Origin: a bacterium
Lineage (GTDB): Bacteria > Elusimicrobiota > Elusimicrobia > UBA1565 > UBA9628
Assembly (NCBI GenBank): GCA_021782205.1
Contig: JAJXVH010000004.1
Location: 35,226-99,225 of the forward strand
DNA: 64,000 nucleotides
Direction: 5' to 3'
The translations under genes and the position numbers were made by a program. Under the pieces are notes generated by a model. It was not told the DNA's origin, did no database searches, and was given only the letters and a program-made list of their open reading frames with translations. Shown piece by piece: positions 27,830 to 54,434 of the stretch; the stretch's first letter is position 1, and the number at the start of each line of letters is the position of its first letter.

Positions 27830-29803
27830 TCATCGCTCGACGGCCACGCGCATGAGTTTCTTGATGCCGGCGCCCTGGATCACGGCCAGGTAGACGCCGC
27901 TGGCCACGTAGCTGCCCGCGGCGTTGCGTCCGTCCCAGCCCGCGTTGCCGGAACCGTCGGCGGCGATGTCGGCGACCTTCTCGCCGATGTAGGTGAAGAT
28001 GCGCACGCGCGTGCCCGGCGGCAGGTTGCGGAAAGTCATCAGTTGGCCGGGATTGACGACGGGACGCAGGGGGTTGGGTCCCACGGTGATGCCGGAGATG
28101 CCCGCCGGCGGTGCCGCGCCGAAGACCTGGTAATAGCCCAAGGTCTGCGCGACGACGACCAAGGTGTTGTTGGGCCCGCGCGAGGACGCCAGCGGCGTCC
28201 AGCCGTGCGCGGGATCATCGTAGTCGATCGTCAGGGAGGCGGGATCGACGCTGCCGATCTGCGCGGGCAGATAGGACGCCGACACGGTCAGCGAGGCGGT
28301 GGGGTAGACGACCGCGCCGTTGGCGGGGTTGACCGCGGTGACCTGGAACAAGATCGGTTGGCCGCCGCTGCCGGGAATGGACACGGCGTCGGCGGGCATG
28401 CCGGGCGGCGGGGTGATCTGAGACTCGACGGCGGAGGAGACGAGGATGTTCACGTTCGATGAGAACGTTCCCGAGGCGAAGCTTACGCCGATCACCGACG
28501 CGGGCAGGACGAAGGTCAGCGCGCCCTGGGCTTCGGCGGGCACGGTGACGATGCTGATAGGAAACGAGGTCGAGGGGACGACGTTGTAGAGGGTCTTGTC
28601 GAAGTCCGAGAGGATTCCGGCGGCGTTGACCGCCTGGACCGTGAAGTAGAGGGTCGCGCCGCCGGAGAGGTTCGGCAGTATTGCCGTCGTCGCCTGCGTG
28701 GAGACGGTGATCGTGGAGGTCAGATGGGTCCACCACTCGATGTTGTAGGTCGTGCCCGGCGGATTGTTGTTGGCGCCCCAGGACAGGACGGCCGAGGCGG
28801 TCGCCGAGGAGAGGCTCAACAAGGTCAGGCCCGTGGTCGGCGCGGCCAGGGTGTTCACGGTGAACGGCGCGGAGTTCGTGGAGCTGGTCAGGCCGAAGGA
28901 TTGTATGTAGTCCGTGTAGGTGGTGTTCGGTATCAGCCCCGTCTGATTGATGGCGAGTTGATTGGGCCCCAAAAGCGCCGACGCGGCCACCCCCGAGTCC
29001 TCGAAGAGCTGGTAGTTGATGGCGCCCGTGCTGGCCGTCCAGGACCAGGCGATCGAGGAGATGCCCAGCGCGTAGCTGCCGGAACTGATCACGGCCTGGT
29101 TGTCGATGGGCGGAAGCGTCGTCGAGAGCGTCACGTCGAAGCCGGAGGGAAAGCCGTTGACGTTGACGGCCTGGACCTGGAAGTTGACGGTTTGCCCCCC
29201 GGGCAGGTCGTTGATCGTGGCGGTCGTGGAGCCGACGGAGACCGACGTGGTCGAGAAAACGACCGGCGTGCTGCCGGCCACATACCACTCGACGTTGTAA
29301 ACCGTGGCGACCGGGTTGCCGCTGCCGTCCCAGCTCAAGGTCTCGGCCGTGCCGTTGAGCACGAGCAGGGCGCTGCCGTTGGGCTGGGCGGCCTGGGTGT
29401 AGAGGCTCGACGTGGAGGAATCCACGACGTGGCCGGCGCTGCTGGCCTCGACCATGAAGGAGACCGAGGTGTTCGTCGAGTAGCCGACGATGGTGGCGGA
29501 ATAGTTGTTCAGCGCGGTCTGCGTGGAGGCGAGCGGAAAGTCCGTGCTGGAGACCACCGCGTAGTCCGTCATCGTGTCGCCGAACCAGGTCACGGTGATC
29601 GAGGAGACGCCGACCGGGAAGGCGTAGATGCCGGTGGCGGCGGTTTGGGCGCGGGCGGGGCGGACCGAGAGTACGGCGAAGGCCGCGCAGACGGCCGCCG
29701 TCCAAACCCATCCCCGCCGGGAACGCGGCGGATTGACCGCCGCTTGGCCTCGCTCCGCGGCTGACGGCGGAATAACGGACTTTGCGCCGTCGTCGCTCGA
29801 CAT
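27830..29803 (-). CDS. Secreted fibronectin type III repeat protein with T9SS/FlgD-like C-terminal domain
   Basis: 657 residues from the ATG at 29803. A signal peptide has an unusually long N-region, with the hydrophobic core at about residues 33-48 (VWTAAVCAAFAVLSV, cleaved near ARAQ). Then come three to four FN3-like modules, each with WDGSGNP, WSWTAS or WGANNNPP strands and YNVEW/YNIEW, a segment of about 150 residues with immunoglobulin-like strands, and a final 85-residue domain (GITVGPNPLRPV, WDGRNAAGSYVASGVYLAV, KKLMRVAVER) like T9SS type A sorting or FlgD Ig domains. The start codon and N-region lie inside a palindromic element (29696-29829), and no ribosome site is visible, so the true start is uncertain. 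Confidence 0.75.
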   Translation of the reverse strand: MSSDDGAKSVIPPSAAERGQAAVNPPRSRRGWVWTAAVCAAFAVLSVRPARAQTAATGIYAFPVGVSSITVTWFGDTMTDYAVVSSTDFPLASTQTALNNYSATIVGYSTNTSVSFMVEASSAGHVVDSSTSSLYTQAAQPNGSALLVLNGTAETLSWDGSGNPVATVYNVEWYVAGSTPVVFSTTSVSVGSTTATINDLPGGQTVNFQVQAVNVNGFPSGFDVTLSTTLPPIDNQAVISSGSYALGISSIAWSWTASTGAINYQLFEDSGVAASALLGPNQLAINQTGLIPNTTYTDYIQSFGLTSSTNSAPFTVNTLAAPTTGLTLLSLSSATASAVLSWGANNNPPGTTYNIEWWTHLTSTITVSTQATTAILPNLSGGATLYFTVQAVNAAGILSDFDKTLYNVVPSTSFPISIVTVPAEAQGALTFVLPASVIGVSFASGTFSSNVNILVSSAVESQITPPPGMPADAVSIPGSGGQPILFQVTAVNPANGAVVYPTASLTVSASYLPAQIGSVDPASLTIDYDDPAHGWTPLASSRGPNNTLVVVAQTLGYYQVFGAAPPAGISGITVGPNPLRPVVNPGQLMTFRNLPPGTRVRIFTYIGEKVADIAADGSGNAGWDGRNAAGSYVASGVYLAVIQGAGIKKLMRVAVER

Positions 29804-29829
29804 CCCGTCGGGGATGGGTTTGGACGGCG
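29696..29829 (+). repeat. Structured palindromic element, copy 1
   Basis: A 26-nt arm at 29696-29721 is complementary to 29804-29829 at 25 of 26 positions, enclosing 82 nt. Inside, GCGGCGG-ATTGA-CCGCCGC (29725-29743) forms a hairpin, followed by TTGGCCTCG (29744-29752), and CTCGACATCCCG lies at 29796-29807. The same core motifs in the same order occur on the opposite strand in copy 2 although the arms differ. The element covers the FN3 gene start and encodes the signal-peptide N-region and first hydrophobic residues. Confidence 0.8.
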
Positions 29830-29956
29830 TTCCACACAGCCAACGGCACGAGCTCATTGGCGCGGCGGCTGCGCCGCCGACGCCTAGGGGGGCAATAGGA
29901 AATTCCTCAACGGCACTGAAGCGGAGCGATGAATAGGACGGGAAGCTGGGGGCGAT
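29830..29956. other. Spacer between the two palindromic elements
   Basis: 127 bp upstream of the FN3 gene. It contains a small GC hairpin, GGCGGC-TGC-GCCGCC (about 29863-29877), and a short A/T-richer patch (AGGAAATTCCT). I see no convincing promoter and no coding sequence. Confidence 0.4.
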
Positions 29957-30082
29957 CGGCGGTCGGAGGGACCTTCGGCGGGATGTCGAGTCCGGACGGC
30001 GCAGAGCCGTCGCACCGCCGCCGGACGAGGCCAAGCGCGGCTCAATGCCGCGCGTGCCCGCCGAAGGTCCCTCCGACCGCCG
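29957..30082 (-). repeat. Structured palindromic element, copy 2 (inverted orientation)
   Basis: A perfect 26-bp inverted repeat, 29957-29982 with 30057-30082, encloses 74 nt. Read on the minus strand the interior has GCGCGGC-ATTGA-GCCGCGC (30053-30035), TTGGCCTCG (30034-30026) and CTCGACATCCCG (29990-29979), in the order seen in copy 1 on the plus strand. Stem bases differ between the copies but stay paired. It lies wholly in the 310-bp gap between the autotransporter stop and the FN3 gene. Confidence 0.8.
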
Positions 30083-30113
30083 GCCGATATGCATCTGTTT
30101 ATTCATCATTCCA

Positions 30114-32678
30114 TTAGAACCGTATCCGAACATCCGCGTTCGCGGTCCGCGCGACGAAGTCCGAGCGCAGGTCCTCGGACGCGCCCAGGTCGGCCGTCAC
30201 GTCCGTGCCGAAGCCGAACGCCAGGCTCACGCCGGCCGCCAGCGCCTCGCGCGACACGTCGGCGGTGTTGACGGAGAGCGCGCCCGCGCCGCCGTTCGCG
30301 AATTGCGCGGAGATCGCGCGGCTTTGATTGGCGAACTCGTGCTCCCAGGCGGCGTTGGCCGACGGGGTGAACGTAAACCAGTCGCCGAAGCGGTGCGAGA
30401 TCTTCGCGCCCAGGCTGGAACGCAGGGAGTTGAAATCGAACGGGGCCACGCTTTGATCCAGGCCTCCGGCGCCGCTCTCGGTGAAGCCCGCGACGCTCAG
30501 CCGGTCGTAATCCAGGCCCGCGGTCGGCGTCAAAGTGGTGCGTCCGCGCTTGAGGTCGTAGCCCGCCGAGGAGTCGAAGTTCAGTTCCGTGCCGGTGGGC
30601 GAGGCGGTCGCCGTGCGGCCCAGGTTGACGATATTCCGGCTGGTCGTGAAGGAGTCGAGCGCCGTGCCCAGGTAGGTGGTTTGGTGGAACGCGCCGTTCC
30701 AGTACGTCTCATAGCCGCCCAGGCGCAGGCTGCTGTTGGTGGCCTCGCCCAGGCCGTCGCCCAGCATGGAGGAGCCGGTGACGTAGCCGCCGGAGAATCC
30801 CGCGGCGAAGCGGTCGCTGAAGCGGTAGTCGGCGCCCGCGGTGCCGCCGAACGCGCTGAAGCCGTAGCCGGGCTGGAAGCCCGAGGCGCCGTTGATTCCG
30901 TCGAGATGGCCGGAGGTGTACAGCATCGAGGCGAAGGTGCCCCACGGGGTGTCGAGCGGATTGACGAAGGGCACCAGCGGCACGGGCCCGCCGCCGCCGT
31001 CGGCGACGAGCGTGCCCGGATAGGGCGACGCGGAGGCCAGGCCGGACTCGTCGATGCCGCCGCGTCCGGCCTGCAGGGCCGCGGCGCGCGCGCCCACCGC
31101 CTGCGCCTGCAGCCCCGCGCCCGCCGTGGCCAGTCCGCCCAAGGCCGAGTAGGCGATGGGTCCCAACTGGTCCAGCGTCGCGTTGAACTGCGCCTGCTGA
31201 CCGGGCGTGAACGCCGTGGTGTTGAGCTGGCCGAGCACCGTCGCCAGGTCCGCGGAGGACGCGCCGTTGGCCGTGTTCAGTCCGCCCGCGACCGAGGCCT
31301 GGTTGGCGGTCTGGCCGGCCATGACCAGAGACGGCTCCTTCAGCGTCAGCAGTTCCCGCGTGCCGGACTGCGTGAGCGTGTAGGCGTAGCCCGAGGCGAC
31401 CGTGACGGTTGGATTGAAGTCGCTGGGCAAGGTCCCGGCGCTGACGATCACGTAGCTGCCCGAGGCCGGGCGCTGCTCGATCGACAAGGTCTGGCCGCTC
31501 AGCGCCGCGGCACCCGACACGTTCAGGCTCGGCGCGGTGAAGATCGGATAGACGCCCAAGGTGCTGGCGGAGGCGGCCGTGTAGTTGCCCGTGATGCTCA
31601 ACGTCGCGGCGCCGGTGCGCAAGGTGCCGTTGTTGCTCACGTTATTGGTGATTTGCTGGTTGAAGCCCATCATGTCGAACGTGCCGCCCGCGTTGACGGT
31701 GAGCAGGCCGTTCGTCGGGAGGCCGTTGGCGACCCCGAGCGCCAGCGTGCCGGAGTTGATCGTGGTGCCGCCGGTCCAGGCGTTGCCGCTGCCGCTGAGC
31801 GTGATGACGCCGGCCCCGCCGTTGGTGTCCTGGACGGTCACGCCGTTGGCGCCGCCGGCGATGGCGCCCGACAAGGTCGCAGCGCTGCCGTAGGCGTCGA
31901 GCGTGGTATTGCCGAGAAACGTGAACGTGTTGGGCAGGTTCGCCGCGGAGACGAAGCGCAGCGTGTTTGCTCCGTCGAGGGTCGTAGCACCCGTGCCCAA
32001 GCCGCTGCCGCCCAGGCCGACGGTCAGGCCGGAGGCGAAGGTGGTGGGGCCCGTGTAGTAGCTGGTGCCGGTCAGCGCGATCAATCCTCCGCCTGTGGCC
32101 TGCACGCTCAGGCCGCCCGTGCCGAACAGGGTGCCGGAGAATGTGGCGTTGTGGCCGTTGGCGTCCAGGATGTTGGCGTTGCCGTTGACCTGCATGTTGT
32201 TGGTCAGCGTGCCGGCCGTTTGCATCAGCAAAGTCGCGCCGGTCAAGGAGAGGGAGCCGCCGTTCGCGCCGCCGAACGCCGAGAGATTGGCGACGCCGAC
32301 CTTCACGCCGTCGATCACGGTGACGCCGGTGTAGGTGTTGGCGCCGGACAGCGAGATCATGCCGCCGCCGACGCCGTCCTTCAGCGTCAGGGAGTTTCCC
32401 GCGCCGCTGAAGACGCCGGACCACGTGGAGCTTTGGCCGTTGGCGTCGAGGGTGCCGTTATAGTTGGGGTCGATCTGCACGGCGGCGGCATACGCGCCGC
32501 CGGAGGTGTCCTGCAAGGTTCCGTTCTGAAATTCATAGTAGGCGGGCGGGACGTTGCTGGCGTTGGTGACCGGCAGGACGGTGTTGACGATCACCGCCTG
32601 CGCGCGCGCGGAGGTCCGGAGCAGGAGGCCGAGAAAGGCCGCGCCGAGGGCCGCGCGGCGAAGGGAGAACGTGATCAT
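30114..32678 (-). CDS. Autotransporter (type Va) with beta-strand-repeat passenger
   Basis: 854 residues. Signal peptide at about 1-27 (ALGAAFLGLLLRTSARAQA). The passenger carries autotransporter-associated beta-strand repeats such as MISLSGANTYTGVTVIDG, LIALTGTSYYTGPTTF and VITLSGSGNAWTGGTTI, typical of a beta-helix. The last 270 or so residues form the autotransporter barrel, with YRFSDRFAAGFSGGYVTGSS and a final strand ending NADVRIRF with terminal Phe. No protease or lipase active site is visible, so it is probably an adhesin or surface structure. A TACAAT box lies 14 nt before the ATG at 32678; a longer TTG start at 32702 overlaps that box. Confidence 0.85.
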   Translation of the reverse strand: MITFSLRRAALGAAFLGLLLRTSARAQAVIVNTVLPVTNASNVPPAYYEFQNGTLQDTSGGAYAAAVQIDPNYNGTLDANGQSSTWSGVFSGAGNSLTLKDGVGGGMISLSGANTYTGVTVIDGVKVGVANLSAFGGANGGSLSLTGATLLMQTAGTLTNNMQVNGNANILDANGHNATFSGTLFGTGGLSVQATGGGLIALTGTSYYTGPTTFASGLTVGLGGSGLGTGATTLDGANTLRFVSAANLPNTFTFLGNTTLDAYGSAATLSGAIAGGANGVTVQDTNGGAGVITLSGSGNAWTGGTTINSGTLALGVANGLPTNGLLTVNAGGTFDMMGFNQQITNNVSNNGTLRTGAATLSITGNYTAASASTLGVYPIFTAPSLNVSGAAALSGQTLSIEQRPASGSYVIVSAGTLPSDFNPTVTVASGYAYTLTQSGTRELLTLKEPSLVMAGQTANQASVAGGLNTANGASSADLATVLGQLNTTAFTPGQQAQFNATLDQLGPIAYSALGGLATAGAGLQAQAVGARAAALQAGRGGIDESGLASASPYPGTLVADGGGGPVPLVPFVNPLDTPWGTFASMLYTSGHLDGINGASGFQPGYGFSAFGGTAGADYRFSDRFAAGFSGGYVTGSSMLGDGLGEATNSSLRLGGYETYWNGAFHQTTYLGTALDSFTTSRNIVNLGRTATASPTGTELNFDSSAGYDLKRGRTTLTPTAGLDYDRLSVAGFTESGAGGLDQSVAPFDFNSLRSSLGAKISHRFGDWFTFTPSANAAWEHEFANQSRAISAQFANGGAGALSVNTADVSREALAAGVSLAFGFGTDVTADLGASEDLRSDFVARTANADVRIRF

Positions 32679-54424: not shown

Positions 54425-54434
54425 GCTCGGCCGT

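Follow-up and report, generated by a model that had tools for sequence, protein, structure and literature searches.

We identified a real family of intergenic inverted-doublet repeats in bacteria of the phylum Elusimicrobiota, which is of a known general kind and has an unusual mode of arm change. The element, found in a 64-kb window (the window being the whole stretch of DNA that was analyzed, 64,000 nucleotides), is an inverted doublet of approximately 390 bp, which consists of two hairpin units of approximately 130 nt and recurs as a whole. The doublet is one copy of a dispersed intergenic DNA repeat. It is reasonably probable that this repeat spreads as a non-autonomous mobile element and that DNA copying, and not selection on an RNA, preserves the complementarity of its arms.

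The initial annotation had described two palindromic copies in the window, and re-reading of the sequence confirmed their coordinates, the ATTGA loops, the positions of TTGGCCTCG and CTCGACATCCCG, the three compensated pairs by which the small hairpins of the two units differ, and the nearly perfect pairing of the outer arms. The structures are thus real, but they are not independent copies. In the window's genome (G000), the shared motif has 10 exact matches in 6 contigs, compared to none for a reversed control pattern, and the matches are of two types, A with 56 bp over the motif and B with 63-64 bp. Where both types lie on the same contig, they are arranged as an inverted pair, A(+)...B(-), which indicates that a single recurring doublet accounts for both reported copies, these being its ends A and B. 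The parts of the window doublet are listed in the table; the pairing of unit A reaches positions 29953-30086 if mismatches are allowed.

Table. Parts of the inverted doublet in the 64-kb window, with positions counted from the first letter of the window
Feature	Position	Strand	Basis or property
Unit B of doublet	29696..29829	+ (core strand = +)	inverted repeat; match to covariance model (CM) R1, 153.1 bits
Outer arms of unit B	29696-29722/29803-29829		96% complementary over 27 nt
Small 7-bp hairpin of unit B with ATTGA loop	29725..29743	+	sequence; folds
Spacer between units, 127 bp	29830..29956	.	aligned in other whole-element copies, 84-89% identity
Third small GC hairpin, within spacer	29859..29884	.	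predicted fold of doublet
Unit A of doublet	29957..30082	- (core strand = -)	inverted repeat; match to CM R1, 116.2 bits
Outer arms of unit A	29957-29982/30057-30082		100% complementary over 26 nt
Small 7-bp hairpin of unit A with ATTGA loop	30035..30053	-	sequence; folds
Leader outside unit A, GATGAATAAAC...ATATCGGC, common to some other copies	30083..30109	-	flanks read by eye

On its A side the element is adjoined by an autotransporter gene (PF03797), whose stop codon is followed by the leader and then by unit A; on its B side lies a gene that encodes a fibronectin type III protein (PF00041). RNA folding of the two window units gave z-scores of -7.48 and -7.97 relative to shuffled sequences, and the whole doublet folded as DNA gave -9.91. 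The two units are the sole places in the window where inverted 13-mers occur 40-120 bp apart. The possibility of two chance palindromes is ruled out by this absence of other such inverted repeats and by the copies found elsewhere. Short motifs alone are uninformative, as CTCGACATCCCG with up to two mismatches occurs 15 times, compared to 12.1 expected. A simple scan of the window copy revealed neither a sigma-70-like promoter nor a terminator. In a search of the window with Rfam 15, only a tRNA reached the gathering threshold, and the best match to the element was weak (E-value 0.019, 25.6 bits, compared to a cut-off of 268); the 401-bp element had no match in plasmid and phage collections. 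On the minus strand (window 29804-30133), the fibronectin-type gene has an open reading frame that continues through the element and whose likely start, ATGTCGAGC, is within unit B; the protein may hence owe its start to the insertion. A reading frame from unit B into the next gene was found in the window and before recN. A coding role of the element was set aside since, by eye, the frame is not continued into a gene in three other copies.

Further copies were found by covariance model search of the window's own and related genomes. A first model, built from 11 units, matched 17 of the 44 genomes of the family at an E-value of 0.01, with at least 14 places in G000 among the matches listed; match counts per genome include both strands of a single palindrome. 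A wider model, built from 38 units, matched 21 of 340 genomes of the phylum at an E-value of 1e-4, namely 15 of the 19 genomes of the genus, four in three other genera of the family, and two elsewhere in the order. The last two (G025 and G030) are the weakest matches of the table, and the usual loop is absent from them by eye. The four remaining genomes of the genus (G002, G008, G012, and G018) had no units at an E-value of 0.1 in a smaller search with laxer filters. A scan of named genomes for the exact pattern yielded nine records, seven of them titled Elusimicrobia bacterium. The two other records (L106, and L113, which is titled Rhodoglobus) had no CM match at an E-value of 0.001 and are probably chance matches.

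Over the fetched loci we counted 137 units, taken from 104 of the 156 rows of one match table and 33 of the 44 rows of another, after removal of matches to the other strand of one and the same palindrome, of L132, of L168:1776, and of three L105 rows. These units form 86 groups, 51 doublets and 35 singles, some of the singles being cut by contig ends. The order within the doublets is plus then minus in 51 of 51, and the units are separated by 19-160 bp, except in one case where the two hits overlap. CM matches of full length cover 111-143 nt, and each unit is built of an outer stem of approximately 26 bp around a core of approximately 70-90 nt. By a simple GC3 rule, which gives rough gene contexts, 23 doublets lie between tandem genes, eight between divergent and seven between convergent genes, with 13 undetermined. 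Several features accompany the units. In the small hairpin, columns 32/46 and 33/45 of the alignment described below (A3) hold a TC-opposite-TC mismatch in 17 of 38 units; because this two-pair mismatch is present in units of other genera too, it looks like a conserved internal loop. Short degenerate repeats of ACGGC or AACGGC adjoin many units (e.g., L116 2200-2250, L167 2763-2833, and L171 2110-2175). Long palindromes that start with GGTGTCAG and end with CTGACACC were observed at L179:515-593 and L181:254-317 (G016 and G003), and GGTGTCAG was found near units in L155 and L168 as well; palindromes bounded in this manner are probably another repeat family.

The flanks of at least nine groups match the flanks of groups in other species, and therefore the sites are shared, among them nadK-recN, pdxJ-glmS, mlaE-mlaF, and purM-purN. 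These genes, and the asnB-like gene mentioned below, are named by recognition of their translated sequences. Between G000 and G010, the flanks of four shared doublet sites are 90-94% identical and those of a shared single are 84% identical. The same junctions can be filled or empty. The nadK-recN junction measures 346-436 bp with units in three of 15 genomes (G000, G005, and G013) and -4 to 19 bp in the 12 others, which are empty. The pdxJ-glmS junction is filled, at 341-477 bp, in four of 16 genomes (G000, G010, G005, and G013, with one unit found in G005), and otherwise measures -3 to 9 bp in 11 genomes and 58 bp in G008. At a third site, G010 (contig C172) has 501 bp including a doublet, compared to 2 bp in G000 (the empty version, at window ~54426-54429), with flanks 90.7 and 91.9% identical; the unaligned bases number 34 in G012, 26 in G018, 72 in G013, 149 in G005, and 623 in G002. 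At a fourth site, a doublet is present in G007, and at most 16 bp are found in G003, G009, G016, and G017, with 78, 530, and 543 unaligned bases in G014, G011, and G001, respectively. At one filled/empty pair, with flanks 90-92% identical and insert ends that are not fixed, no target duplication was recognized.

In a tree of four proteins from 16 genomes, G012 is sister to G000 and G010 with a bootstrap value of 100, and the nodes that place G005, G013, and the group of G004 and G018 are weak (44-74). In spite of this sister position, G012 lacks the element at the two operon junctions, nadK-recN and pdxJ-glmS, which requires parallel insertion, precise loss or transfer at least once. Both junctions are tight in G012, G002, G004, and G018, and both are filled in G000, G005, and G013; three of the former four genomes are devoid of units, and G004 contains two. 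From the filled and empty sites we infer that the element is mobile and that the filled state arose by insertion, with support from outgroups at two sites. The suggestion of a mobile or duplicated family made in the initial annotation is thus borne out by the many copies in this genome and its relatives, by filled and empty junctions, and by strong covariation, where the opposite outcome would have been no further copies and no covariation beyond the first two.

The pairing of the stems was assessed in alignment A3, which holds 38 units picked for diversity and in which the small hairpin was extended by hand to seven pairs. Of the 23 pairs of the outer helix, 22 show two-sided changes, and 97.7% of its cells are paired. 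The covariation score of the whole structure, which was predicted from A3 itself, is 0.714; shuffles score 0.192 and slid partners 0.179 at most. One measure, the count of further pair types, did not exceed that of the shuffles, 80 of 500 of which reach the same value. The changes avoid G-U: only 6 of 863 outer-helix cells (0.7%) are G-U and nine are A-C, compared to 121 G-U of 1426 cells (8.5%) and nine A-C in a control with the RNase P RNA of 14 genomes of the genus. Likewise, the ratio of one-sided to two-sided changes is 5:289 in the outer helix and 29:92 in RNase P RNA. The inner helices contain G-U in 21 of 446 cells, 18 of these in one column. Over all sufficiently long units (2967 cells), the mismatches in the outer arms, read on the core strand, comprise 55 A-C, 19 G-T, and 178 of other types, or 50, 19, and 112, respectively, in a non-redundant set. 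A-C exceeds G-T on this strand in every class of flanking gene direction. The avoidance of G-U, together with this excess whichever way the flanking genes run, argues that selection on an mRNA fold is not the simplest cause, and a DNA palindrome with jointly rewritten arms fits the data better than a conserved RNA.

The arms of the two window units had been called wholly different in the initial annotation. Across the family, the arms are not wholly unrelated, as loose patterns such as CGGCGG...GGCGGG are kept. Among seven groups of units with identical cores, the arms clearly differ and still pair in four, and are the same or nearly so in three. Two units of one genome (L158:2370- and L157:2501-) and one of another (L180:2438-) have a letter-identical 71-nt core but not the same arms, and in each unit the two arms are complementary except for 2-3 mismatches. 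Units L047:991+ and L118:2594+ have a common 74-nt core, with seven arm positions changed, six of them on both sides. In the 104 pairs of units with cores at least 95% identical, 255 arm differences are two-sided and 235 one-sided. Since one-sided differences are about as common as two-sided ones in close pairs, ordinary stepwise compensation explains a part of the changes; half-changed arms exist and seem to be resolved with time. Turnover is also seen at orthologous sites. The A units of G000 and G010 at mlaE-mlaF are 75% identical, and that of G010 is 94% identical to the A unit of the window, which lies at another locus; different subfamilies thus occupy one orthologous site. Three B units of G000, at purM-purN, the asnB-like gene, and nadK-recN, are mutually 99% identical and are 95-96% identical to the purM-purN unit of G010. 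Other units track their orthologs better (window A unit, 98%; pdxJ-glmS A unit, 92%). In the fetched loci (446 kb), a scan for inverted repeats of at least 15 bp with spacers of 3-40 revealed 12 outside the units. None of these is a core-less, empty unit; one, by eye, is a shortened unit.

If the favored reading of a non-autonomous mobile DNA repeat is correct, the doublet would move as a hairpin in single-stranded DNA by means of an enzyme supplied in trans. Template switching, in which one arm is copied from the other, would then yield the paired arm changes, as in quasipalindrome correction, where PMC7202029, in the parts that concern this process, describes how imperfect inverted repeats are perfected in this way. 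Conversion or transfer of cores between units might be an alternative to template switching. We saw no movement, transposase or target duplication, and because many sites are common to several species, movement would be slow, or homologous recombination may explain a part of the spread. A bolder form of this proposal, which is possible and which we put forward tentatively, is that the conserved core of approximately 70-90 nt spreads in inverted pairs while the stems of approximately 26 bp are replaced as a matched pair, so that at the edges the fold, and not the sequence, is inherited and is renewed at the level of DNA. By a different account, the repeats are old and vertically inherited, gene conversion has homogenized them, the empty junctions arose by deletion, and none of the repeats is currently mobile. 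The shared orthologous sites, the higher similarity of some B units within a genome than between genomes, and the empty junctions of G012 next to its filled sisters are in line with such a history; the empty junctions are, however, tight and unscarred (1-19 bp), and the fillings present in G010 only and in G007 only, with several empty relatives, look like gains. We consider this account unlikely. A mobile core that inserts into pre-existing palindromes, with the arms being target sequence, would explain identical cores within different paired arms, and PMC3733652 mentions some REP dimers inside long palindromes. This is highly improbable, given that core and arms stay together within subfamilies (e.g., eight units of G007 with nearly the same arms) and that no empty palindrome was found among the 12 other inverted repeats of the fetched loci.

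The undescribed structured RNA proposed in the initial annotation, transcribed within an mRNA or from a promoter of its own, would have its fold selected, e.g., for mRNA processing or stability, with dispersal being secondary. A role in mRNA processing or stability has been reported for ERIC sequences. The very strong covariation, the stable fold and the intergenic places inside operons would suit such an RNA, and the mismatch bias becomes, on the opposite strand, an excess of G-U over A-C, explicable by a transcript from that strand. Nevertheless, the proposal did not hold up well and we judge it improbable, as the element reaches no Rfam gathering score, the outer stem nearly lacks G-U, the mismatch bias is independent of gene direction, no promoter was found in the window copy by the simple scan, and four of the 19 genomes of the genus have no units. 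The units might instead be giant REPs that form a REPIN proper and are moved by a RAYT (Y1) transposase. The inverted doublets, of which the singles may be remnants, the presence of Y1 transposase genes in 12 of 16 genomes, and the mismatches within the small hairpin, which recall the bulge required in E. coli REPs as described in the relevant part of PMC8266576, are compatible with this. The identity is nonetheless distinctly improbable: a GTAG tag at the 5' foot is present in one of 131 units (12 nt outside and 4 nt inside the foot scanned), the units are too long at 111-143 nt, 20 of 36 Y1 places examined had no unit within approximately 1.5 kb (best CM E-value there 0.11), and G013 has no Y1 match despite more than 40 unit matches. 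The tag of CGTC REPs is not a feature of the family either, with CGTC within reach of the 5' foot in seven of 131 units; its complement GACG was found close to this foot in 41 of these units, above the other tags tried. The only Y1 match in the window's genome is at G000:C102:2821-3153 (L200), with no unit found near.

It is common to interpret covariation as evidence of a functional RNA. The present repeat, which comes and goes between genes, combines very strong covariation with almost no G-U and could be a test case for the distinction of DNA-level palindromes from selected RNAs. The family also adds a dispersed repeat to a little-studied phylum, and the element alters junctions at recN, glmS and other genes that are widely conserved.

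Among literature titles on palindromic, intergenic or transposable repeats of Elusimicrobia or Elusimicrobiota, none named such a family, and a search on intergenic palindromic repeats in general returned known families. The term ERIC-like, used in the initial annotation, applies only if it is taken broadly, for any intergenic palindromic repeat. Like ERIC and the MITE-like repeats of 100-200 bp described in PMC2229807, the units are intergenic palindromes of approximately 130 nt without a gene; unlike ERIC, for which the description in the same source gives short terminal repeats, TA ends and target duplication, they form inverted doublets, the comparison being one of descriptions only. The Caulobacter intergenic repeats (CIR), in the account of PMC2229807, resemble the element in having two long inverted-repeat arms and a linker in intergenic DNA. 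They differ, again by description only, in the GANTC of their terminal loop: loops in the family are ATTGA or similar, those of the window copy being ATTGA, with a GACTC seen by eye elsewhere in unit A. Quasipalindrome correction, as treated in PMC7202029, is a mutational process and not an element, and is invoked here solely to explain the paired arm changes. In architecture, the element also resembles REPINs and REP doublets, as far as the descriptions in PMC3116915, PMC3733652, and PMC8266576 extend: these are intergenic and multicopy, with inverted pairs of palindromic units and a spacer. The sections of PMC3116915 and PMC3733652 on REPINs and REP dimers present them as inverted doublets, and mention compensatory changes in the spacer hairpin and dimers within long palindromes. 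REPs themselves are described in PMC8266576 as sequences of 20-50 nt with a tetranucleotide, mostly GTAG. CGTC REPs have a stem of 8-9 bp and a loop of 4-5 nt, in contrast to the outer stem of approximately 26 bp and core of approximately 70-90 nt here. Unlike REPs as a whole, which in these descriptions are short, tagged by GTAG or CGTC and conserved in sequence, the units of the present family are 111-143 nt long, lack GTAG, and have long arms that vary while their pairing stays.
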